Below, piece after piece: positions 1,575 to 48,627 of a stretch of DNA of 64,000 nt. Below the pieces are notes generated by a model that searched no databases, was not told the origin of the DNA, and saw only the letters and a program-made list of their open reading frames with translations. The stretch comes from Carboxylicivirga linearis (lineage in GTDB: Bacteria; Bacteroidota; Bacteroidia; Bacteroidales; Marinilabiliaceae). Both the position numbers and the translations under genes were made by a program. How positions within the stretch are numbered: position 1 is the first letter of the stretch; each line of letters begins with the position of its first letter. The stretch lies in NCBI RefSeq assembly GCF_018271995.1, contig NZ_JAGUCO010000005.1:186001-250000 (forward strand), in the 5' to 3' direction.

Positions 1575-1779
1575 ACGATTCTGTCAACTAATTTTTTAAT
1601 ATTAGGTTACTACTTCGTAGTTATTTTGTCCACAGATTAAGCCGATTAAACGGATTTAAATTAGCTTAACTAATGGTCTATATTCACAAAAGGAGAAATA
1701 AGCCGTTTGTATTTGAGACTTTTTTCGCCAAAATTAATTAATAATCCTACTTTGAGATTTGTCGCTTTTAAATAATTCA

Positions 1780-2076
1780 CCCTGTGTAATAGGTTCACTT
1801 TTTATCTAGATATTCTTTCAATCTATTTTTAATTTACCTTTTCCCATAGGTTGTTTTCAAATACTTCTCTCTATGAGTGGCGTCTTGTTGATTAAGACAG
1901 GCTCCATAATATACTAGTTTTAATGGCCGTCTGTTCTTTGTTGAATCTACTTCGCCATTGTTATGGGCATTCACTCTTTGTTTTATATCAGCTGTGTATC
2001 CTGTATAAAACATTTCATCTTTCAGGCTAATTAATACATACGTATAATACATTTTCAATTTATTATTACACAGGGT
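1780..2076 (-). mobile_element. 297-bp element with 13-bp perfect terminal inverted repeats, carrying a GIY-YIG gene
   Basis: ACCCTGTGTAATA at 1779-1791 is the exact reverse complement of 2064-2076. The sequence between the repeats is almost wholly occupied by one GIY-YIG gene. The element lies inside the GxxExxY gene, and removing 297 bases (99 codons) restores that gene's frame and its conserved sequence, which fixes the ends to within a base. The exact cut is uncertain by one T at each edge. I do not recognise this as a described insertion-sequence family: it has no room for a standard transposase, so the nuclease itself is the obvious candidate for driving movement or spread. Confidence 0.72.
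1834..2052 (-). CDS. GIY-YIG endonuclease family protein, prematurely stopped
   Basis: The product is a single GIY-YIG domain starting at MYYTYVLIS (ATG at 2050-2052), with the YTG part of the second motif, QR and the catalytic glutamate in HREKYLK. An upstream start at 2097 would lie in host-gene sequence outside the element, so the internal ATG is preferred. The frame ends after TYGKR with TAA, but the following codons continue in frame as IKNRLKEYLDKK to a TGA at 1795-1797. Related proteins usually have Y at the position now occupied by TAA. One nonsense change therefore appears to have removed about 13 C-terminal residues from an 85-residue protein, and activity is doubtful. Confidence 0.75.
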   Translation of the reverse strand: MYYTYVLISLKDEMFYTGYTADIKQRVNAHNNGEVDSTKNRRPLKLVYYGACLNQQDATHREKYLKTTYGKR

Positions 2077-2421
2077 AAACTTGAGATTCATGCTCACCTG
2101 TTAATTCAGATAGTGCTTTAAGTTCAATAATTACACTATCAAAGCATATAAAGTCTGCATAATAATGTTTTGTATGTGTCAAGTCTTTATATTGAATTTC
2201 TAATTTCTCTTCTCTATGATAAGTGATGCCCTTAATTTTTAATTCATGTTCAAAAGCTTCCTGGTATACATTCTCCAAGAAGCCACAGCCAAGTTCTTTG
2301 TGAACTTCCATTGCAGCACCTATAATTGCATAAGTTTCTTGTTTTAGAGGAAAGTCATTATTTAATAGGTTTGGCATTTGTAATTATGTTAATCTGATAA
2401 ATCTGCTTAATCTGTGGATTA

Positions 2422-3267
2422 TCACACCGTGTCAATAAAGTTACGCTCTGTTTTGTGGAAGATGATAATTCCTAAGAATAAGATAACAGTAGCAACAGCT
2501 GCACTATATCCCAAACTTATCCAACTGAAATGTCCGGCTCCTAAAAAGGCATATTTAAAACCTTCGAGGATAGGAGTGAAAGGATTTAGTAATATTAAGT
2601 CTTTCATTAGGCCTGGTTCAATGGTGCTTACCGGATAAATAACCGGAGAGGCATACATTAAAAGTTGTACTCCAAAGGTTAACAAAAAGGTTAAGTCACG
2701 ATACTTGGTAGTCCAGCTAGTGAAAATTATACCTGCACCTAAGCCAAACATAGCCATTAAAAGCAAGTATACTGGCAGCAGTGCTATAGTCCAGTTGGGC
2801 TGTACTGCGCCTTCTTGTGTGAAAAGGAAGTACGAATACACTACCATAAAGAAAGTAAATTGTATTGCGAACTTAATTAGTCCACTGGTAACTTTGGCAA
2901 AAGGCATAATTAATCTTGGGAAATATACTTTGCCAAATATATTGGCGTTTTCGGTAAATGTTTTGGCGGTAGTGTTAAAACTTTCCGAGAAATAGTTCCA
3001 GATGGTTATACCAGCCAGGTAGAATAAAGCCTGAGGTGTGCCGTCCGTACTGATTTGTGCAATGTTACCAAAAACAACCATGTATATTAAAGTAGTCATA
3101 ATGGGTTGCACCACAAACCAGATTGGACCAAGTATTGTTTGTTTATATACGGTTATGATGTCGCGCTTTACAAACATTTTTAGTAAGTCGCGATAGGCCC
3201 ATATTTCTTTAAAGTTAATGTCGAACGCGTGGCGTTTGGGGCGTATTATTAAATCGTAATCTTTCAA
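2422..3267 (-). CDS. wzm: ABC-2 type polysaccharide export permease (Wzm-like)
   Basis: This 281-residue inner-membrane protein has about six hydrophobic segments and the ABC-2 layout. A cytoplasmic N-terminal stretch rich in aromatic and basic residues (YRDLLKMFVKRDI) precedes the first helix, and a conserved NPFTPILEGF region lies before the last helix. It would form the transmembrane pore that works with the Wzt ATPase encoded downstream, exporting an undecaprenyl-linked glycan. The two genes are separated by the GxxExxY cassette, which starts 4 bp after this gene's stop codon. The family is certain, but the exact glycan cannot be deduced. Confidence 0.88.
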   Translation of the reverse strand: MKDYDLIIRPKRHAFDINFKEIWAYRDLLKMFVKRDIITVYKQTILGPIWFVVQPIMTTLIYMVVFGNIAQISTDGTPQALFYLAGITIWNYFSESFNTTAKTFTENANIFGKVYFPRLIMPFAKVTSGLIKFAIQFTFFMVVYSYFLFTQEGAVQPNWTIALLPVYLLLMAMFGLGAGIIFTSWTTKYRDLTFLLTFGVQLLMYASPVIYPVSTIEPGLMKDLILLNPFTPILEGFKYAFLGAGHFSWISLGYSAAVATVILFLGIIIFHKTERNFIDTV

Positions 3268-3717
3268 TGTTGAAATGTTTATTTGTTGAGTCGTTGAATT
3301 GTAATTAACAGTTTAGTGTTTTTTTATCCACGAATTACGCGAATGATCGCGAATTTTAATTTAACTGTTTAATAGTCTAACTGTTTAAATATTGATTTGT
3401 TAAACTGTTTAATTGTTATTTGAGTGCATAGTAATAAGTGCGTAGTGCTTTGCCTATCTTCTTTCACTCTCTACTAAAATAAGCTGACAGCTATTAGCTT
3501 TTTAAAACCACAGATTATTGGGATTAAAGGGATTAAGATAGTTGTATTTGCTTTTTTGTTTAATTGTCAAATTGTTCACTTCCTTCTACTTCCCTTTTGG
3601 GGTACCTTTAAGGCGGGGTAGGGGGGTAATGTTAAGATGTGATATTTATGATGTTAAGATGTCGAATTGTTTAATGGTTGAATTGCTAATTGTATTTCGA
3701 TCTTTAACCTTTCTACT
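3268..3717. repeat. 450-bp intergenic region of word-like repeats, no gene
   Basis: No convincing frame is present. The stretch is built of short repeated words. AACTGTTTAA variants occur several times at about 3355-3420, and TTGTTGAGTCGTTGAATTGT at about 3287 recurs inverted near 6150. CCACGAATTACGCGAAT lies at 3328 and CCACAGATTATTGGGATT at 3508. A G/C-rich palindrome remnant with CTTCCCTTTTGGGG lies at about 3588-3630 and resembles the repeat at 12845-12902. It may be the scar of lost cassettes of the kind found nearby. Confidence 0.55.
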
Positions 3718-4518
3718 TTAACCTTCTTCATTCAACTCTGGTGCATATTTTTCAATACAGTAATCCAGTATATGCAAGTCAAAAAGTATGGTTTTCTGAT
3801 TGATTACCTCTTCGGCTTCGGGATATACCTGCATAGAGGTAAACAAAAAAGAATCCGTCATTAAAAGGTGATCTTTTTGTGCGACGAATTCAAATAGGGC
3901 TGCATGAGCAATGTATAGTTCCAGCGGATGAATGCTCTGTCGTCCTTTCATCAGTTGACTTAAGGTTGAATGTCCAAAGGTGGAATCATTAAGCAACATA
4001 GGTTTCTTATCCTGTATGATCAGGTATTGATCCTGCATCAGTTCCAACAACCTGTTCTCAGGGTATACTGAACAAGCCTCTTTTATTTTACGCAATATCT
4101 TCGCCGGTTCTTTTCCCTGAAGTTCCATGTCGATTATACTCATTAATGTATAGAAAGGTATTTCAGGATGCTGATCTGCCAGTTTGTTTAACTTAAACGG
4201 TTTTAGATCGTCTCCAAATTCCAGGGAGTTTATGATTTCGTCTATACGATCCAAATGTTCCTGGTCTGCTGTTCCACTTAATTCAACAGGAATCTCTGCA
4301 TCATTGGTTTCAATATCCCAGAAATCAAAAAAACGATTACGCGTATCGATAATTTCTTGCTCTGCAAAATCATTCAGAAATAAACGATTGCTGACATCCA
4401 ATAAAGATAAATCTTCATCCTCAGAGCGATTTTCTATTAAAGCTAATCGTTTTAATTCTTCAATGTCAGCGTGGCGTTGTTTTAAAGGTTCAGTATATAG
4501 AATTTGATTTTGGATCAT
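3718..4518 (-). CDS. Hypothetical protein of the polysaccharide locus
   Basis: I do not recognise this 266-residue protein. It has no signal peptide or membrane segment, is acidic, and looks largely alpha-helical, with Leu-rich helices in the second half (for example ILRKIKEACSVYPENRLLELM) that could be degenerate TPR-like repeats. Its ATG at 4516-4518 lies 2 bp downstream of the arm of the cassette holding the first four-helix-bundle gene, and cysC is upstream in the same direction. Operon position suggests a role linked to the polysaccharide genes, but nothing in the sequence shows one. Confidence 0.6.
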   Translation of the reverse strand: MIQNQILYTEPLKQRHADIEELKRLALIENRSEDEDLSLLDVSNRLFLNDFAEQEIIDTRNRFFDFWDIETNDAEIPVELSGTADQEHLDRIDEIINSLEFGDDLKPFKLNKLADQHPEIPFYTLMSIIDMELQGKEPAKILRKIKEACSVYPENRLLELMQDQYLIIQDKKPMLLNDSTFGHSTLSQLMKGRQSIHPLELYIAHAALFEFVAQKDHLLMTDSFLFTSMQVYPEAEEVINQKTILFDLHILDYCIEKYAPELNEEG

Positions 4519-4520
4519 GT

Positions 4521-5085
4521 TTAGATGTTGGGATGTATGATTTTTAGATGAATGATGTAAGGAGGTTTGATATATGATATACGATGTTTGATGTATAAGA
4601 TTATTAGATGTATTTTACTTTTTTAGCATTAATGATTTGCGGGTGACAATAAATATTGATGCTAGTTCGTGTGCTTCCTGTTTTATAGATTTTATATCTG
4701 GTAATAGATTGTTTTCTTCTATTAGCTCAAGCCAGAACTCTGTTTCGTCCGCTTCTTCAATAACAATACTTAATTTTGCAATGTACGATGCTCTTGATTG
4801 TGCCAGACATGCAGCTCTATAATTTGCTGCTACAGATGTAGCAGAACGGATGATTTGCTTTTTGATATGTTGGGCTAGATAAGAATCAGGCAATTTAGAT
4901 GCGAGTTTTATAATACTAACTGCAAATTGCTTAGTTCTTTTCTTTAGCTCTTCTTTGTTCATATTCTGATGTTTGATGTACGATTTTTAGATTTATGATG
5001 TTAGGATATATGATATAGTTTATTCTTTATATTTCTGCCCGTCTTCACATCTAACATCTCTACGTCTTCACATCCCAACATCTAA
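4521..5085. mobile_element. Candidate inverted-repeat-bounded cassette 1 (four-helix-bundle gene)
   Basis: TTAGATGTTGGGATGT at 4521-4536 is the perfect 16-bp reverse complement of 5070-5085. The two arms enclose one four-helix-bundle gene and fit tightly between the cysC stop codon (5093) and the ATG of the next gene (4518). Taking the segment out would leave about a 10-nt operon junction. In the transcript the arms could pair, enclosing the small gene in a loop, as in 23S rRNA intervening sequences. A second, direct similarity of about 50 bp lies inside both flanks (4524-4582 and 4968-5017). Confidence 0.5.
4615..4962 (-). CDS. Four-helix-bundle protein of the 23S rRNA intervening-sequence family (copy 1)
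   Basis: This 115-residue, all-helical protein belongs to the TIGR02436/S23 four-helix-bundle family. It shows the conserved second-helix pattern QIIRSATSVAANYRAA and a third helix with the EADETEFWLELIEE signature. Family members are encoded within intervening sequences of 23S rRNA genes in Leptospira and Coxiella and as free genes in many Bacteroidota, and their molecular role is unclear. This copy is clearly diverged from the other two in the locus. It lies between cysC and the unknown gene in operon direction, enclosed by 16-bp inverted repeats. Confidence 0.85.
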   Translation of the reverse strand: MNKEELKKRTKQFAVSIIKLASKLPDSYLAQHIKKQIIRSATSVAANYRAACLAQSRASYIAKLSIVIEEADETEFWLELIEENNLLPDIKSIKQEAHELASIFIVTRKSLMLKK

Positions 5086-5092
5086 CATCGTG

Positions 5093-5683
5093 TCACCATC
5101 TCACAGCTGCTCTTACATATTCATAGGCTAATTCAACGCCTTCTTCAATACTTAGTTTATTGGTGTCGACCACTAATTCCGGATTATCAGGACGATCAAA
5201 AGGTGCATCTAAACCGGTGAAGTTTTTGATTTCTCCCGCCAAGGCTTTTTTGTATAAGCCTTTAGGATCACGCTCTGTACATGTCTCAAAGCTGGCATCC
5301 ACAAAAATCTCAATAAAATCATCTGTGCCAATAATCTCACGAGCCATGGCGCGTACGTCATTGGTAGGAGAGATAAAGGCATTGATAGTGATGACTCCGC
5401 AGTTTAAAAAGAGCTTATTTATTTCTGCAATACGCCTGATATTTTCATTTCGGTCTTCTTCTGTAAAACCCAGGTTATTATTAATGCCCGTACGAATATT
5501 ATCACCATCCAACACTTGTGTCAGATAGCCTCTTTGTGCCAGTTTGCGCTCCAACCCATGAGCCAAAGTACTTTTACCAGATCCACTTAATCCGGTTATC
5601 CAGATAACTTTTCCGTTTTGTTTCAGATACTGTTCTTTATCTTCTCTGTTGAGATAGATGTTCGTGGGGTGTATGTTGTTCAT
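5093..5683 (-). CDS. cysC: Adenylyl-sulfate kinase
   Basis: This 196-residue enzyme would phosphorylate APS to PAPS with ATP. It has the P-loop GLSGSGKST at about 31-39, the LDGDNIRTGINNNLGF segment that binds APS, and the CTERDPKGLYKKA and GLDAPFDRP motifs of CysC. Length is normal for the family. No ATP sulfurylase (cysDN) or PAPS reductase lies in this window, and the gene is embedded between polysaccharide genes. This fits PAPS supply for glycan sulfation better than cysteine synthesis, although no sulfotransferase is visible here. Both its flanks carry four-helix-bundle cassettes. Confidence 0.93.
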   Translation of the reverse strand: MNNIHPTNIYLNREDKEQYLKQNGKVIWITGLSGSGKSTLAHGLERKLAQRGYLTQVLDGDNIRTGINNNLGFTEEDRNENIRRIAEINKLFLNCGVITINAFISPTNDVRAMAREIIGTDDFIEIFVDASFETCTERDPKGLYKKALAGEIKNFTGLDAPFDRPDNPELVVDTNKLSIEEGVELAYEYVRAAVRW

Positions 5684-5689
5684 ATGAAT

Positions 5690-6182
5690 GTTTAATTGTC
5701 GAGTTGCTTATTTGTTTAATTGAATTACCCAATTAAGTTTTTGTGGAATGAGTTAAGCTTATTTGATAATTCATTTATCTGAATTCGAAATTTAGAAAGA
5801 ACATTCTCTGTTATAAAATCCAAATCATTAGACAGAATCAATTGGTTTAAAACTTCTAAGAGACTTGAATATGCTATTTCAATAAACCGAGCTTTATCTT
5901 TTTTACTATTCCTTCCATTACCTTCAGCGATGTTAGATGAGATTGATACAGCTGCTCTTCTTAACTGATTTGTTAATCCAAATTTTTCAGACTCAGGAAA
6001 TTTAGAAGTAACGGAATATATTTCTTTTACTAATTTTCTGGATAACTGCCAGATTTCCAATTTTTCAAAACTGTAGGTATACATAGTTTACTGATTATTT
6101 GAGTTAAAATTTGAAAGATATAAGAACTAATTTAGACTTAAATCCTCAACAAATCAACGACTCAACAAATCAACAGTTAAAC
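5690..6182. mobile_element. Candidate inverted-repeat-bounded cassette 2 (four-helix-bundle gene)
   Basis: GTTTAATTGTCGA at 5690-5702 faces the reverse complement of GTTTAACTGTTGA at 6170-6182, matching at 11 of 13 bases. The arms are weaker than in the other cassettes and are made of low-complexity words, so taken alone this pair would not convince. The placement is the same as in the other cassettes: 2 bp after the epimerase stop (6185) and 6 bp before the cysC ATG (5683), with the small gene in operon direction. Confidence 0.38.
5725..6084 (-). CDS. Four-helix-bundle protein of the 23S rRNA intervening-sequence family (copy 2)
   Basis: This 119-residue all-helical protein starts FEKLEIWQLSRKLVKEIY, the classic opening of the family. 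It contains LRRAAVSISSNIAEGNGR and a third helix AYSSLLEVLNQLILS. It is closely similar along its length to copy 3 (7200-7559), which suggests recent duplication or repeated arrival of the same kind of element. The gene lies between the epimerase and cysC genes in operon direction and within the weaker inverted-repeat pair at 5690/6182. Function is unknown, but the family assignment is secure. Confidence 0.87.
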   Translation of the reverse strand: MYTYSFEKLEIWQLSRKLVKEIYSVTSKFPESEKFGLTNQLRRAAVSISSNIAEGNGRNSKKDKARFIEIAYSSLLEVLNQLILSNDLDFITENVLSKFRIQINELSNKLNSFHKNLIG

Positions 6183-6184
6183 TA

Positions 6185-7165
6185 TCAAACCTTATAATAC
6201 CCTTTATACCACTCCACAAACTTACCTAAGCCCTCATCAATAGAAGTCTGTGGTTTGAAGTTGATTCTGGTTTCCAGATCAGTAATGTCAGCATAGGTGC
6301 GGTAAACATCCCCTTTTTGCATTGGAAGGAATTCTTTAGGAGCTTCTTTTCCAATATGCTTTTCGAGAGTTGATACAAAATCCATCAGTCTTACCGGTTT
6401 GTTATTACCAATGTTAAAGAGTCGATAGGGTTTGTCTTTTTCTTCAGCTGTGTCAAAAGGAAGATCGACTAATTTCTCAATAGCGTTGGTGATATCATCC
6501 ACATAGGTGAAGTCGCGTTCCATATCACCATGATTATAAATTTGAATGCTATCTCCTTTTACAATTTTATTGGAGAATGAGAAATAGGCCATATCAGGTC
6601 GTCCCCATGGACCATAAACCGTAAAGAAGCGTAAACCTGTCATGGGTATTTTATATAAAGACGCATAACTATGCGCCATCATCTCGTTTGCTTTTTTAGT
6701 AGCTGCATATAATGATACCGGTTCATCCGTTCGATTCTCTACACTAAAGGGAACTTCTTTAGTATTGCCATATACCGAGCTGGAAGAAGCGTAAATTAAA
6801 TGCTTCACCGGGTTATTACGACAAGCTTCCAGAATATTGATAAAACCAATCAAGTTACTATCGATATATTTATAGGGTTTGTCAATACTATAACGAACAC
6901 CAGCTTGTGCTGCCAAATTGATGACTATATCAAATTTTTGTTCTTGAAACAGTTCATCCAAAGCATCTTTATCGCAAATGTTAACACTTCGAAATGTGAA
7001 GTTAGGGGTGTCTTTAAGAATTTTAAGGCGATCGAATTTTAACTGAACATCGTAATACTCATTTAAAGAATCTATTCCAATTACTGTGGTGCCATTCTTA
7101 GCTAATAATTGAGATAAATGAAACCCGATAAATCCGGCTGCACCGGTGATTAGTATTTTATGCAT
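6185..7165 (-). CDS. UDP-glucuronate 4-epimerase-like NAD-dependent epimerase
   Basis: This 326-residue extended short-chain dehydrogenase begins with the NAD-binding GAAGFIGFHL motif at residues 8-17. It keeps the catalytic YAATKKANE (YxxxK) and the FFTVYGPWGRPDMA motif typical of LpsL/CapI-type UDP-glucuronate 4-epimerases, which make UDP-galacturonate for surface glycans. The N-terminal SLNEYYDVQLKFDRL also fits that subfamily. Length is slightly below the usual 335-350. UDP-glucuronate could come from the ugd gene at 43.3-44.6 kb. UDP-glucose 4-epimerase activity is the main alternative. Confidence 0.85.
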   Translation of the reverse strand: MHKILITGAAGFIGFHLSQLLAKNGTTVIGIDSLNEYYDVQLKFDRLKILKDTPNFTFRSVNICDKDALDELFQEQKFDIVINLAAQAGVRYSIDKPYKYIDSNLIGFINILEACRNNPVKHLIYASSSSVYGNTKEVPFSVENRTDEPVSLYAATKKANEMMAHSYASLYKIPMTGLRFFTVYGPWGRPDMAYFSFSNKIVKGDSIQIYNHGDMERDFTYVDDITNAIEKLVDLPFDTAEEKDKPYRLFNIGNNKPVRLMDFVSTLEKHIGKEAPKEFLPMQKGDVYRTYADITDLETRINFKPQTSIDEGLGKFVEWYKGYYKV

Positions 7166-7190
7166 AGTTTTTTTAGGATAAAGGAGTATT

Positions 7191-7614
7191 GATTAATGAT
7201 TATGGATTGTTTCGTTGATACTTATATAATCCGCTTAGTTTTTTGGAAATCAATTCTATTAGTTTCTTTTTTTTTGATAAAGTATCTTCGTTTATGTAGT
7301 TGAGATCTGTTGCAATAATTAATTGATTCGCAACTTCCATTAGACTGGTATATGCAATTTCTGTAAAATGACTCTTGTCCTTATGAGAAAACCTGGAATT
7401 ACCTTCTGCAATGTTTGAACTTATTGAAACAGCTGCTCTTCTTAATTGGCTTGTCAAGCCAAATTTTTCTTCATCAGGAAATGAGGATGTAATAAGATAA
7501 ATTTCTTTGACAAGTTTTCTGGAATCTTGCCATACTTCTAATTTTTCAAAATTGAACATGATTATATGATTGGTTTATTGAATTTTTAGCTTATTAATCT
7601 ATAATCATTAATCC
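7191..7614. mobile_element. Candidate inverted-repeat-bounded cassette 3 (four-helix-bundle gene)
   Basis: GATTAATGATTATGGATT at 7191-7208 matches the reverse complement of 7597-7614 at 17 of 18 bases. The pair encloses one four-helix-bundle gene, and the left arm overlaps its last codons. The right arm overlaps the stop codon (7595-7597) of a glycosyltransferase remnant upstream. The left arm lies 25 bp before the ATG of the epimerase gene. The order stop, arm, small gene, arm, ATG is the same as in the other cassettes. Confidence 0.48.
7200..7559 (-). CDS. Four-helix-bundle protein of the 23S rRNA intervening-sequence family (copy 3)
   Basis: This 119-residue protein opens FEKLEVWQDSRKLVKEIY and carries LRRAAVSISSNIAEGNSR and AYTSLMEVANQLIIA. 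It is strongly similar to copy 2 over its whole length. The Lys-rich tail (SKKKKLIELISKKLSGLY) completes the fourth helix. It is the third family member in 3 kb, each placed before a different polysaccharide gene. Family membership is secure and function unknown. Confidence 0.87.
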   Translation of the reverse strand: MFNFEKLEVWQDSRKLVKEIYLITSSFPDEEKFGLTSQLRRAAVSISSNIAEGNSRFSHKDKSHFTEIAYTSLMEVANQLIIATDLNYINEDTLSKKKKLIELISKKLSGLYKYQRNNP

Positions 7615-7723
7615 TTCCTCTATTAATCTGTTTATACAGCTTCGCCTCCTCAGTCACAAAAGTGTGAGTATCGTAGGTTGGTACGATGATAGAGATGAAT
7701 GGTTGCAGCTTTGGAAGGAATAA
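7595..7723 (-). pseudogene. Remnant of a family 2 glycosyltransferase
   Basis: An open stretch of about 42 codons without a start codon reads LPKLQPFISIIVPTYDT near its beginning. The FISIIVPTYD core is the usual N-terminal strand of family 2 glycosyltransferases, in which it contacts the nucleotide sugar. It continues as HTFVTEEAKLYKQIN, which I do not recognise, and stops at 7595-7597. It has an in-frame stop just upstream and no other glycosyltransferase motifs, so it is best read as a decayed gene. The identification rests on about a dozen residues. Confidence 0.4.
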
Positions 7724-7961: not shown

Positions 7962-9932
7962 CTAATTCATTGTCAATTGTTCATCTTTAATCAACACTAT
8001 TTTTGAATTTAGAATCTGTGTTACTTTCGTCATAAATTGTTTTAATTCGTCATAGCTTTTAGCAGGGTAAGTCGACTTGTTAAAGTTATAAGACGCATAG
8101 ATTCTGATTTTATTGTTATCCATTTTCTGTGATAAAAAAGTCAACATTAAATCTTCTTTCTGAATGGTTTGTTTTTCTGGCAGAACATCAATAGTATAAC
8201 CCAATGGTATATCAATTAAGGCTGAGTATCTATATGCCTTTTTATTGACCATGTCAACCGGCAACATTCTTTTTTCCTGCTTAAATGGATTTTCTTTAAT
8301 CGGGAAGTGGGCAAAAGGATGGAGAATGATTTGGTCATCTATTACATCTATGTTCTGATTAAATGTAAAACTAAATTCAAAAGGTTTTTCTTCATCCATC
8401 AGATTGTCTACTGTAATGTCGTCATCTTCACTTAGGCCTAAAGATTCATATTTCTTTTTAAATTTATCCTGGTTGGAATAATAGCTTCTTCGTTGATCGA
8501 TAGCGATATAGCCGGTTGATGTTTTGTTGCATTGTCCTTCTATGGTAAAATTATCGAGGTTGATACTATATTGCAGGTTGGTTTTCTCCAAGGATGGAGC
8601 ATTGTTATCGATGGTTATCCAGTTTTCACTATCCTCAGATACAACAAAGCCTTGTCCATTAATGCATTCCTCAGGAATTAATTGATTAGGACAGAAGCCT
8701 TGTGTAGCGTCTAAAAGTTGATACGAATTATCAACCTTTGCCAGTATCAAAACATAATTAAAAAAGTCGGAATAGGGGAAATCTGTGTTAACCTTACCAT
8801 GATCGCGGGTGCTAATAATTACCGGTTCAGCCTCAATGTTATTGGCTCTTAAAATGCCTATGGTAAGTAAATTAATGTTGGCGATATTGCCACTTAATTC
8901 ATTTTGAAAATCCTTAAAACTTTTTTGGGCAAACTTACCTTCGTATCGATTCCATTTGTAATTACTTTTTACCATGTTAAGAATGGCATTTGATCTTTCG
9001 GATTCGGGCAAAGAAGAGAATTGACTAGCATTTTTGGCTGCCCACTTGGTTGATTTTTTTATGTATCTGCCAAAGTCATCCATGTCCAGTAAATCATTAG
9101 CCAATTTAGGCCACGTATCCATAAATTTTTGTTTATAACCGCCAGGGTGATTGATCTCGACAAGCTGAAAATCCAATTTTTTGATATAATCAGTTCTGGA
9201 TGATATAAAGCTCTCATCCTGAAATGAAGGGATGTTTTTTAGTCCAAATTCATATACATAATCACGAAAAATAATTCCACCAAAATGTCTGTCAATTCCT
9301 TTCTGCTCAAACTGATTGAAGTGATCTAAATTGCCTACTCCTTGTATGCGATAACGATAGGAGTAAAAAGGAATCATAGCAGCAGAATATTGACTATACA
9401 TGGTAGGTATGTCATTCTGAAACTCCCAATCGCGAAAGTGCACATGGTAAGGCGAGTCGATGGTGTAAGTAAATTCGATAATAGAGCCATCAGTCACTTT
9501 GGGCATGGCGAACTTCTTTAAATAAACATATTGGCTAATTTTTTCTTCATAAACCTGTTCAATATTCAAAGGAGTTTTTTCCATTTTAGCATCTTTGAAG
9601 TTATAAGTGAAGCCCTTAATATCGCGAACTTTTTCCCTATTGTGTTCAGAAATGTACAAGGGTATAACTATTTCTCCTTCGTCATATCCTCCTTCATTAA
9701 ATATTTTAATGCGGGTATGTCTTTTAAAATTAACAATAAAACCAGATCCTTCTTCTTGAATAAATTGTGATACACCATAATCGAAAAGAATAACTGCAGG
9801 TGCCTCTTTTTCAAAAGGACATTCTTTTAATCTTAAATCATCGGGATTTAATACGCCAAATTTCTCCGATCTGTTTTGGGCATTGCTAAAAAAGTAAATA
9901 ATAATAAATAGGGAAGTTGCGAATATTTTCAT
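7962..9932 (-). CDS. DUF3857 protein with a degenerate transglutaminase-like domain
   Basis: This 656-residue exported protein has a signal peptide ending near SNAQN, an N-terminal DUF3857 beta domain (about 60-250), a transglutaminase-like core (about 290-440) and a C-terminal beta region. In the core the segment that normally carries the nucleophilic cysteine reads ELSGNIANINLL (about 345-356), with no Cys. The His-bearing strand reads FFNYVLIL, with Tyr in place of His, and only an Asp (LLDATQ) remains. It is therefore probably not a catalytic transglutaminase or protease. This variant is seen in other Bacteroidota, as far as I recall. It lies 23 bp downstream of a related gene with an intact triad. 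Confidence 0.82.
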   Translation of the reverse strand: MKIFATSLFIIIYFFSNAQNRSEKFGVLNPDDLRLKECPFEKEAPAVILFDYGVSQFIQEEGSGFIVNFKRHTRIKIFNEGGYDEGEIVIPLYISEHNREKVRDIKGFTYNFKDAKMEKTPLNIEQVYEEKISQYVYLKKFAMPKVTDGSIIEFTYTIDSPYHVHFRDWEFQNDIPTMYSQYSAAMIPFYSYRYRIQGVGNLDHFNQFEQKGIDRHFGGIIFRDYVYEFGLKNIPSFQDESFISSRTDYIKKLDFQLVEINHPGGYKQKFMDTWPKLANDLLDMDDFGRYIKKSTKWAAKNASQFSSLPESERSNAILNMVKSNYKWNRYEGKFAQKSFKDFQNELSGNIANINLLTIGILRANNIEAEPVIISTRDHGKVNTDFPYSDFFNYVLILAKVDNSYQLLDATQGFCPNQLIPEECINGQGFVVSEDSENWITIDNNAPSLEKTNLQYSINLDNFTIEGQCNKTSTGYIAIDQRRSYYSNQDKFKKKYESLGLSEDDDITVDNLMDEEKPFEFSFTFNQNIDVIDDQIILHPFAHFPIKENPFKQEKRMLPVDMVNKKAYRYSALIDIPLGYTIDVLPEKQTIQKEDLMLTFLSQKMDNNKIRIYASYNFNKSTYPAKSYDELKQFMTKVTQILNSKIVLIKDEQLTMN

Positions 9933-43275: not shown

Positions 43276-44586
43276 TTATCGTCCTATACCATAATAGGTA
43301 AAGCCGTTTTCTTTTAATTCAACCGGATCATAAATGTTTCGACCGTCAAAAATTACTTTTTCATTCATTAGTTTTTCCATCACTTTATAGTTAGGAATTC
43401 TAAACTCCGGCCACTCAGTTATTAATATTAGGGCATCAGTATCAATTAGTGCATCGTACTGGTCTTTGCCATATTCAATTGTGTCACCTAAAATCTTATG
43501 GGCTTCTTCAGCAGCAACAGGATCATATGCCTTAACTTTTGCACCTTCCTTAATAAGGGCATTGGCAATAACAACTGATGGAGCTTCTCTCATGTCATCA
43601 GTCTGTGGCTTAAATGATAAACCCCACATTCCAAACGTTTTTCCTTTTACGTTGCCAAAATGCTTTAATATTTTACTAACAATCACCATTTTCTGATCGT
43701 TATTCACATCTTCAACAGATTCTAATAAACGTAAACGATAATTGTATTGCTGAGCTGTTTTAATAATGGCTTTTACATCTTTAGGAAAGCATGAACCACC
43801 GTATCCGGCACCTGCATATATAAATTTATTTCCAATTCTGGTATCAGAACCAATACCACGACGAACATTAGAAACATCAGCACCAACAATTTCACATAGG
43901 TTAGCAATGTCATTCATAAAGCTAATTTTAGTTGCTAACATCGCATTGGCAGCGTATTTGGTCATTTCTGCTGATGGTATATCCATGAATAAGATAGGAT
44001 GCCCGTTGAGAGTGAAAGGCTTGTATAGCTTTTGCATAATCTTTTCAGCCTTTTCCGATTCTATACCTACAACAATTCTGTCAGGCTTAAGAAAGTCTTC
44101 AACGGCATTACCCTCTTTCAAAAATTCAGGATTAGATGCAACATCAAAATCAATTTCTACGCCTCTTTTCTCTAATTCATCCTGAACAGCAGCTTTTACT
44201 TTTTTAGCTGTGCCAATCGGCACTGTACTTTTTGTGACAACTACAATATGTTGCGTAATGTGTTTACCTATTTCGCGAGCAACAGCTAACACGTGGCTTA
44301 AATCAGCACTTCCATCTTCACCTGGAGGTGTTCCAACTGCAATGAAGACTGCCTCTGCTTGTTCAAGACTTTCTTTTAAGCTTGTTGTAAATTGTAATCT
44401 TTCTTTTTCAACGTTAGCAAGAACCATTCTGTCCAGGCCAGGTTCGTATATAGGAATAATCCCATTTTTAAGATTTTCTATTTTTTTTTCGTCAATATCA
44501 ACACATGTTACATTCACACCTGTATCAGAGAAACATGTTCCTGTTACTAAGCCAACATAACCTGTACCTATAATTGAAATTTTCAT
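43276..44586 (-). CDS. ugd: UDP-glucose 6-dehydrogenase
   Basis: This 436-residue enzyme oxidises UDP-glucose to UDP-glucuronate with two NAD+. Motifs are IGTGYVGLVTGTCFS, AVGTPPGEDGSADLS, STVPIGTAK, NPEFLKEGNAV, and the catalytic Cys in GYGGSCFPKD. The C-terminal domain contains KPQTDDMREAPS. It supplies both the UXS enzyme downstream and the epimerase of the polysaccharide locus at 6-7 kb. Confidence 0.95.
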   Translation of the reverse strand: MKISIIGTGYVGLVTGTCFSDTGVNVTCVDIDEKKIENLKNGIIPIYEPGLDRMVLANVEKERLQFTTSLKESLEQAEAVFIAVGTPPGEDGSADLSHVLAVAREIGKHITQHIVVVTKSTVPIGTAKKVKAAVQDELEKRGVEIDFDVASNPEFLKEGNAVEDFLKPDRIVVGIESEKAEKIMQKLYKPFTLNGHPILFMDIPSAEMTKYAANAMLATKISFMNDIANLCEIVGADVSNVRRGIGSDTRIGNKFIYAGAGYGGSCFPKDVKAIIKTAQQYNYRLRLLESVEDVNNDQKMVIVSKILKHFGNVKGKTFGMWGLSFKPQTDDMREAPSVVIANALIKEGAKVKAYDPVAAEEAHKILGDTIEYGKDQYDALIDTDALILITEWPEFRIPNYKVMEKLMNEKVIFDGRNIYDPVELKENGFTYYGIGR

Positions 44587-48117: not shown

Positions 48118-48627
48118 TTATTTTTCCTTTGTGAAAGTTGCGTCAGCTAAGTCTACAACTAATGTATAGCCAATGTTGCTTATTTGTAGATATAGCTTTT
48201 TAGCTCCCTGTATCTCTAGTACTTCGCCTGTAATACCTTTTAATGGACCTGATGTTACAGTTATGGTTTGACCTTTTTCTAATTTGTCCGTTTCAACATC
48301 AAAATCTAACTGATTCTCAATGGTACGTCTCATAGCTTCTATGTCAGAATCAGGTATAGTACAAGCTTTACCTTTATAAGAAACATATGCAACAACACCA
48401 TTGGCCTCAAATACACGCCTGTAGTCTTGTTTGGGTATGTTAATGAATATGTAGGAACTAATAACCGGCATTTCCACCCATTTCTTGCGATCACTCCATT
48501 GACGAAGAACCTTTTTCATGGGTAAATAAGCTTTAATGCCCATTCTTGTTAATTGCTCCAATACCTTTTTTTCAGCCCTAGACTTAGTATAAAGTGCATA
48601 CCAAGTGTATTTAGTTTTATCCTCCAA
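48118..48627 (-). CDS. UpxY-like NusG-family antitermination protein
   Basis: This 169-residue protein has a NusG N-terminal domain (WYALYTKSRAEKKVLEQL, KKWVEMPVISSYIFINI) and a C-terminal KOW domain (GPLKGITGEVLEI). UpxY/RfaH-like paralogues load on RNA polymerase and allow transcription of long polysaccharide operons. The start is a TTG at 48625-48627: an in-frame TAG lies two codons upstream and the next Met is past the middle of the NusG domain. The gene is alone and convergent with rnz, not at the head of a capsule locus, so it may act in trans. Confidence 0.86.
   Translation of the reverse strand: MEDKTKYTWYALYTKSRAEKKVLEQLTRMGIKAYLPMKKVLRQWSDRKKWVEMPVISSYIFINIPKQDYRRVFEANGVVAYVSYKGKACTIPDSDIEAMRRTIENQLDFDVETDKLEKGQTITVTSGPLKGITGEVLEIQGAKKLYLQISNIGYTLVVDLADATFTKEK

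Follow-up and report, generated by a model that had tools for sequence, protein, structure and literature searches.

Intervening sequences (IVSs) occur in ribosomal RNA (rRNA) helices, most commonly helices 9, 25 and 45, and are cut by RNase III (PMC4990558). That of Coxiella burnetii has tandem heptameric repeats (GACAGAT) just upstream of its open reading frame (ORF), and S23p, the protein encoded by IVSs of 23S rRNA, is a homopentamer in X. campestris (PMC4990558). The function and origin of rRNA IVSs and S23 proteins are called unclear in the portion of that source that deals with them. Here we describe a 64,000-nt stretch of the genome of Carboxylicivirga linearis (contig NZ_JAGUCO010000005.1, positions 186,001 to 250,000; hereafter the window), in which three genes of this four-helix-bundle family lie within a minus-strand operon of polysaccharide type, each between inverted arms. 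An earlier note, made from the letters of the window alone, had likened these inserts, called cassettes 1 to 3 below, to rRNA IVSs carried by mRNA. The reading that we lean towards is that they are mobile cassettes whose arms serve as recognition arrays for their own protein.

Three four-helix-bundle genes between inverted arms

The three genes encode proteins of 115–119 aa that belong to PF05635/TIGR02436, the 23S rRNA intervening-sequence family. In the profile search they exceed the PF05635 cut-off of 33.8 bits (scores in Table 1) and the TIGR02436 cut-off of 24 bits, with 82.5, 122.5 and 120.7 bits for the proteins of cassettes 1, 2 and 3, respectively, which bears out the kinship with rRNA IVSs. 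Their predicted isoelectric points (pI) are 9.1–9.4. The inverted arms are as the earlier note had described them, with 16 of 16 matching bases in cassette 1 (4521–4536/5070–5085), 11 of 13 in cassette 2 (5690–5702/6170–6182) and 17 of 18 in cassette 3 (7191–7208/7596–7613), and the order of upstream stop codon, arm, gene, arm and downstream ATG, together with the direction of the operon, was likewise found in all three. When the flanks were aligned as described below, cassettes 1, 2 and 3 scored 33, 26 and 26, respectively; the arms of cassette 3 reached 31 (17/18) in a gene-independent scan for inverted pairs. The best match of cassette 2 lies in another register and includes mismatches (Table 1). 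Cassette 1 extends beyond a simple pair of arms, as 4975–5017 in its upstream flank is an 84% direct repeat of 4532–4574 in its downstream flank. A distance of 402 nt separates cassette 3 from its upstream gene.

Inverted arms compared with chance

For each gene, the 150 nt upstream were aligned with the reverse complement of the 150 nt downstream, arms with a score of at least 28 being taken as strong; as a mismatched control, upstream and downstream flanks from different cassettes were paired. For the clade set, 128 hits in the genus and its relatives were reduced, by removing identical genes, to 103 distinct PF05635-like ORFs, truncated ones included; it was drawn from the window, the best profile matches and 60 hand-chosen stretches. 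The many-phylum set comprises the 82 ORFs of the best 80 of at least 583 loci, of which 77 with full 150-nt flanks were used for the counts of wobble, polarity, period and direction, and its record titles include Bacteroidetes, Verrucomicrobia, Planctomycetota, Acidobacteria, Desulfobacteraceae and candidate phyla. Locus L207, which duplicates L066 (same genome), is present in both sets. The later set comprises 40 high-scoring loci, one per genome of the phylum, which were chosen after the score had been fixed and whose start was shifted to the first ATG.

Strong arms flank 54 of the 103 clade ORFs; among mismatched flanks the rate is 2.4%, and in the same loci 10 of 307 other ORFs have them. 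They were found around 52 of the 82 many-phylum ORFs (mismatched flanks, 2.6%) and at 17 of the 40 later-set loci (2.2%). At a score of at least 26 the clade count is 63/103, against 3.6% of mismatched flank pairs. The arrangement that the earlier note had seen three times is therefore real and general. An unbiased sample of 864 kb, made up of the window and 40 evenly spaced 20-kb pieces of the congener G001 (one contig), contains four PF05635 genes, three of them from the window. Arms scoring at least 26 with a period of 7 or 8 surround all four, and none of the remaining genes (two GxxExxY, 630 others); at any period, such arms surround 9 of the 630. Regardless of genes, the same sample holds 47 inverted pairs scoring at least 28, nine of them with a period of 7 or 8, and five of these nine enclose a PF05635 gene.

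That the arms arose by chance, or from AT-rich composition, has some appeal for cassettes 2 and 3, whose score is only 26 taken alone, and the evidence of each singly against chance is only moderate. The mismatched-flank, control-gene and later-set tests contradict this explanation and already refute it, and its remaining probability is negligible.

Repeated words, polarity and the encoded protein

The arms are degenerate tandem arrays of a 7–8 bp word. Their self-match at lag 7 is 0.52–0.56 in the clade set and 0.48 in the many-phylum set, against 0.31–0.32 in shuffles, and the best period is 7 or 8 in 106 of 118 upstream arms and 113 of 118 downstream arms (shuffles, about 27/118). A 7/8 array is present on at least one side in 96 of the 103 clade ORFs, at a threshold passed by 5% of shuffled flanks, the control here being shuffles and not real flanks of non-IVS genes. 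The arms also have a constant polarity, the upstream one being G-rich and the downstream one C-rich: G exceeds C in 106/118, and in the later set in 16/17, with C exceeding G in 0/17. G/C skew of this kind is absent from the flanks of ordinary genes (control genes of the 864-kb sample). A swapped polarity is seen between L050 (570–932) and L063 (1473–1832), which have 68% identical proteins and similar arm words, L050 being C-rich upstream.

The cassette proteins are under purifying selection, with dN/dS of 0.035–0.11 at dS of 0.6–1.4 in six of seven pairs, the seventh being saturated; the words thus persist where neutral sequence would be scrambled. The pI is above 8 in 55% of 97 four-helix-bundle proteins, and the solved relatives 2gsc and 2rld contain five chains each. 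A ring of five four-helix bundles, often basic, would be well suited to reading a short repeated word.

Both neighbours run in the same direction as the cassette in 97/103 (clade), 67/77 (many-phylum) and 32/40 (later set) cases. Since neighbouring ORFs of the clade loci are themselves codirectional in 374 of 413 pairs, we read this mainly as residence inside operons, hardly ever antisense, for which the absence of a promoter of their own would be the simplest cause.

Association of the arm word with the protein

At sites without related neighbour genes, the arm word is common to 24 of 31 pairs of proteins that are 70–80% identical. When identity is below 50%, this is so for 135 of 4649 pairs (about 3%). 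The 31 pairs stem from about six protein lineages and are therefore not independent; 20 of 27 remain after dropping the four that involve L207. The word of cassette 2 (TTGTTGA type) recurs at other sites in other genomes with 75% identical proteins, and the congener G002 has a 74% identical relative of the cassette 3 protein in a different gap of a similar operon, again with GGATTATGGATTA-type arms. The earlier note had argued, from the differing arms of the three cassettes, against a single sequence-specific transposase and for selection on pairing; an inference that no sequence-specific factor is at work fails, because related proteins at unrelated sites share a word. Gene and word appear to move as one unit. 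Among divergent orthologues, moreover, the two arms change together, an arm pairing better with its own partner than with that of an orthologue in 47 of 66 cases (p 7e-6), an effect concentrated by site (8/8 at hisF-hisIE, 7/7 at another, the others near even).

Presence and absence within the genus

The genome of C. linearis (G000) carries eight PF05635 genes, all between protein genes and, with the flanks read by eye, each with inverted repeated words around it. They lie between a redoxin-like gene and hisH, hisA and hisF, hisF and hisIE, two methylmalonyl-CoA-mutase-like genes, queE-like and queF-like genes, and, for three of them, in the window (gene names outside the window were assigned by reading translations). 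Full, empty, decayed and exchanged cassettes were all encountered when the his operon was compared among 14 genomes of the genus, the own one included. The hisF-hisIE cassette is present in nine, and the other five have gaps of about 21–86 nt. That between hisA and hisF is present in seven, truncated with both arms in G013, reduced to arm remnants in G005 and G012, and absent in G004, G007, G010 and G011, where the gaps are 5–45 nt, some perhaps with small remnants. Removal of cassettes 1 and 2 from the window operon would, as the earlier note supposed, leave spacings of about 10 nt, within the range of these gaps; no clean empty site was found at either place.

At hisH, the downstream arm lies within a coding N-terminal extension of HisH (L001, 1841–1930) in 10 of the 13 genomes compared there; G004 has neither cassette nor extension, in G010 the cassette gene is lost but its end remains, as does the extension, and in G011 a different cassette stands beside a HisH without the extension. 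Exchange is seen between G003 and G008, whose HisF proteins are 97% identical and whose hisF-hisIE cassette proteins are 57% identical with different words. Similarly, the gap upstream of the window's epimerase gene holds a PF05635 gene in G000, a quite different one in G006 and a decayed one in G001, and the cassette 1 gap holds in G001 only a cargo-less hairpin-like stretch with another word. In the phylum, PF05635 copies were found in 233 of 296 sampled genomes, and named Flavobacterium and Pedobacter strains also carry such cassettes.

Proposed mechanism and alternatives

In the mobile cassette that we propose, the unit would be an inverted pair of degenerate 7–8 bp word arrays around one S23/Avd-like four-helix-bundle gene. 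It would sit in sense orientation in operon gaps, borrowing the transcription of the operon, and would be gained, exchanged and lost as a unit. A ring of five protein chains would bind the word array of its lineage, the arms being the recognition ends, and an enzyme acting in trans would cut or copy the cassette.

Several observations weigh against this proposal. No transposase, nuclease or reverse transcriptase lies inside the three window cassettes, in each of which the PF05635 gene is the only ORF of at least 70 aa on the operon strand, and inspection by eye of filled and empty sites in the his operon revealed no target-site duplication. Several cassettes of the genus look vertically inherited with losses, and the link between word and protein can also come from simple joint descent; below about 60% protein identity the words diverge. 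The co-variation of the arms is smaller over all orthologous sites with at least three members (40/63, p 0.0015), and four three-member sites lean the opposite way, with 1/3 each. The arms themselves are not uniform: 15 of the 103 clade ORFs score below 20, with no recognisable inverted arms (12 of the 15 keep a one-sided 7/8 array), C exceeds G upstream in 7 of 118 arms, and the later set gives lower figures than the other two sets for both arms (17/40) and codirectionality (32/40). Finally, four of the nine inverted pairs with a period of 7 or 8 in the 864-kb scan enclose no PF05635 gene; these are an AT-rich pair at window position 44469, one pair within an arm, and cargo-less hairpins in L293 and L298.

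The cassettes would be mRNA-borne IVSs, as the earlier note had supposed, if the arms were preserved so that the transcript can pair, with RNase III cutting the stem and freeing a small mRNA. The sense orientation, the protein family common to rRNA IVSs and the co-variation of arms between orthologues would suit this, as would the terminal inverted repeats, RNase III excision and heptameric repeats described for an rRNA IVS (PMC4990558). When the three intervals were folded as RNA, the prediction of better pairing than in shuffles held for cassettes 1 and 3 (z of -3.45 and -2.67), and cassette 2 folded no better than shuffles (z -0.86). A further test comes from the mismatches. Selection on an RNA helix should leave G.U tolerated, and in an RNA stem the G.U mismatches of the sense strand should exceed A.C, which is G.U on the other strand only. 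We counted 52 G.U against 70 A.C in the clade set, 34 against 65 in the many-phylum set and 11 against 23 in the later set, or 97 against 158 in total. By cassette, A.C exceeds G.U in 48 and G.U exceeds A.C in 28; other alignment settings bring the two closer in the clade set, at best to 78 against 78. The excess of A.C on the sense strand is itself an asymmetry opposite to that of RNA pairing (naive binomial p 0.00016). Selection on RNA pairing of the arms is therefore not borne out. Because the arms co-evolve and yet G.U does not exceed A.C, pairing or word identity is maintained, though not in the way that the chemistry of an RNA helix would predict, and we regard the mRNA-borne IVS as unlikely.

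The lack of a G.U excess fits DNA-level processes, including passive ones, in which replication slippage makes the 7–8 bp arrays, template switching between the arms keeps them alike and the protein neither recognises nor requires the word. Near-identical genomes do differ in array length (the hisA-hisF upstream arm of G001 is 15 nt longer than that of G000, by a repeat of the neighbouring piece), cargo-less hairpins exist, and the relevant parts of PMC4679880 and PMC4692102 report that heptameric repeats abound in bacterial genomes, with slippage proposed as their source. Passive arms would leave unexplained the absence of such arms from all 630 other genes and the constant G-rich polarity upstream; they would account for the recurrence of a word at new sites only if the arms travelled with the gene. 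We give this explanation a low probability. More doubtful still is a retroelement, in which an Avd-like protein escorts the element's RNA and a reverse transcriptase acts in trans. It draws on the homology of PF05635 with Avd (PMC10053308, in the part concerned with these proteins), a weak bAvd match of 30.8 bits and, again, the sense orientation. Against it, G001 has nine PF05635 genes and no RVT_1 match in its single contig, which bears on present, not past, activity, and G002, G006, G007, G009 and G013 have 5–11 PF05635 genes and no RVT_1 match either.

Two candidates for a required mover of the cassettes were set aside. A reverse transcriptase showed no link with copy number by eye, given the six congeners just named, and neither did a Y1 transposase of the kind found in REP/RAYT systems: PF01797 is matched in 35 of 40 listed genomes, the own one included, and G013, with nine PF05635 genes, has no match to it, nor to RVT_1, in an assembly of about 740 contigs.

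Other cargoes and features of the window

The window also holds a GxxExxY gene whose layout resembles that of the four-helix-bundle cassettes, with CCACAGATTAAGC-type arms and a site between ABC ATPase and permease genes (Table 1). Thirty loci each were collected for GxxExxY and for GIY-YIG, of which 5 and 10, respectively, were dropped as having no usable ORF. Strong arms were found at 12 of the 25 usable GxxExxY loci, against 7.5% of mismatched flanks, and the genes are codirectional with both neighbours in 19/24. In 17 GxxExxY arms the top self-match falls at lags 9–10 (0.35–0.38, given here with no shuffle control), and G.U against A.C is 19 against 31. The setting between protein genes, which the earlier note had called new, thus holds for the cassettes and is broader than claimed, as the GxxExxY family has comparable inverted arms. 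A GIY-YIG ORF in the window has inverted arms of its own, ATTACACAGGGT, and in L204, from another genus, a GIY-YIG ORF with a similar arm word adjoins an apparent GxxExxY coding sequence. As a third cargo GIY-YIG was rejected: 5 of 20 usable loci reach 28, but by eye these are duplicated hairpins, and we therefore claim nothing beyond the window's own copy.

The cargo-less hairpins with heptad arms lie at 8165–8252 in L293 and 1972–2098 in L298, the word in L293 being like that of a cassette about 1.5 kb upstream. Within the window, 3267–3718 is a cargo-free intergenic stretch that combines a number of distinct repeat words, one of which, TTTGTTGAGTCGTTGAATTG, also occurs in cassette 2, and resembles scars or miniature derivatives. 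Upstream of cassette 3, CTGAGGAGGCGAAGCTGT and the hairpin preceding it (7625–7690) are conserved in G000, G001 and G006 by eye and form a probable leader of the polysaccharide operon. The ORF at 48118–48627 is NusG-like, judging from its translation.

Table 1. Positions in the window of the cassette genes, their arms and the related elements.
Feature	Position	Strand	Remarks
GxxExxY cassette (ORF 2066–2377, remnant 1703–1831)	1629–2418	-	Arms 2391–2418 and 1629–1656, period 9
GIY-YIG ORF (1834–2097), inner inverted arms	1776–2079	-	2064–2079/1776–1791; between two parts of the GxxExxY gene
Cassette 1, downstream arm core	4517–4536	-	Extends to ATG of next gene
Cassette 1, four-helix-bundle gene	4615–4962	-	115 aa, PF05635 57 bits, pI 9.4
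Cassette 1, upstream arm core	5070–5088	-	GATGTTA-type words; further stretch 4975–5017 in other orientation
Cassette 2, downstream arm	5689–5716	-	
Cassette 2, four-helix-bundle gene	5725–6084	-	119 aa, PF05635 130.6 bits
Cassette 2, upstream arm	6148–6175	-	TTGTTGA-type words
Cassette 3, downstream arm	7175–7208	-	Two overlapping solutions: 7191–7208 (into the gene's last codons) and 7175–7197
Cassette 3, four-helix-bundle gene	7200–7559	-	119 aa, PF05635 132.2 bits
Cassette 3, upstream arm	7593–7615	-	GATTAATGATTATAG-type words

Comparison with known systems

No description of operon cassettes of this kind was found in the open-access literature, subscription papers being mostly outside the search; they apparently represent a widespread small mobile element, related to rRNA inserts, that has gone undescribed. 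A wider view, for which we would stop somewhat short of even odds, is that they form a large class of small mobile genes across many phyla, in which a ring protein reads a lineage-specific 7–8 bp word under an evolving protein-to-word code; rRNA IVSs would then represent the branch established in rRNA, with GxxExxY cassettes as a second class of the same layout and another period. The association of protein and word opens a direct binding experiment. It also calls for caution about guilt by association, as four-helix-bundle genes met in cas, histidine or capsule operons may simply reside there as cassettes, with no part in the pathway; 18 such genes are reported inside cas loci in the portion of PMC3936711 that treats them.

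Insertion sequences and miniature inverted-repeat transposable elements resemble the cassettes in their terminal inverted repeats, their mobility as a unit and their small cargo-less derivatives (as in L293 and L298). The window cassettes differ in having no transposase and no fixed end sequence, and in their sense orientation in operons. Degenerate heptad repeats are found in cyanobacterial introns and in nif intergenic regions. Heptameric intergenic repeats (TAACTGA in Beggiatoaceae; GGGAATC and GGGGA(C/T)T in Xanthomonas and Nostoc) are likewise tandem 7-bp arrays, mainly intergenic, a few of them forming inverted pairs; they are described as arrays of a given word, and the sections of PMC4679880 and PMC4692102 devoted to them state no link with a four-helix-bundle gene. 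Avd (bAvd), of diversity-generating retroelements, is a distant homologue and also a small four-helix bundle, but the cassette proteins score below its cut-offs (bAvd, 30.8 against 40; DivGenRetAVD, 32.4 against 80). None of the five RVT_1 matches of G000 lies on the window's contig, so that such a retroelement was not recognised here, template and variable repeats not having been searched for.

The closest relatives are the IVSs of 23S rRNA with an S23p ORF, which likewise enclose a four-helix-bundle ORF in terminal inverted repeats and are sporadically distributed. The cassettes differ in lying between protein genes with no sign of RNA-level selection. None was found in 23S genes, three 23S probes having matched none of the IVS loci collected by then. 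Purifying selection acts on their proteins; that of Coxiella, by contrast, is reported, in the part of PMC4990558 on that IVS, as probably not expressed. Copies in ordinary operons make the function and origin of rRNA IVSs and S23 proteins testable. Because the protein, the inverted ends and the heptameric repeats known from Coxiella are common to both, we read the operon cassettes as kin of the rRNA IVSs in another habitat, not as members under the strict definition by rRNA location.

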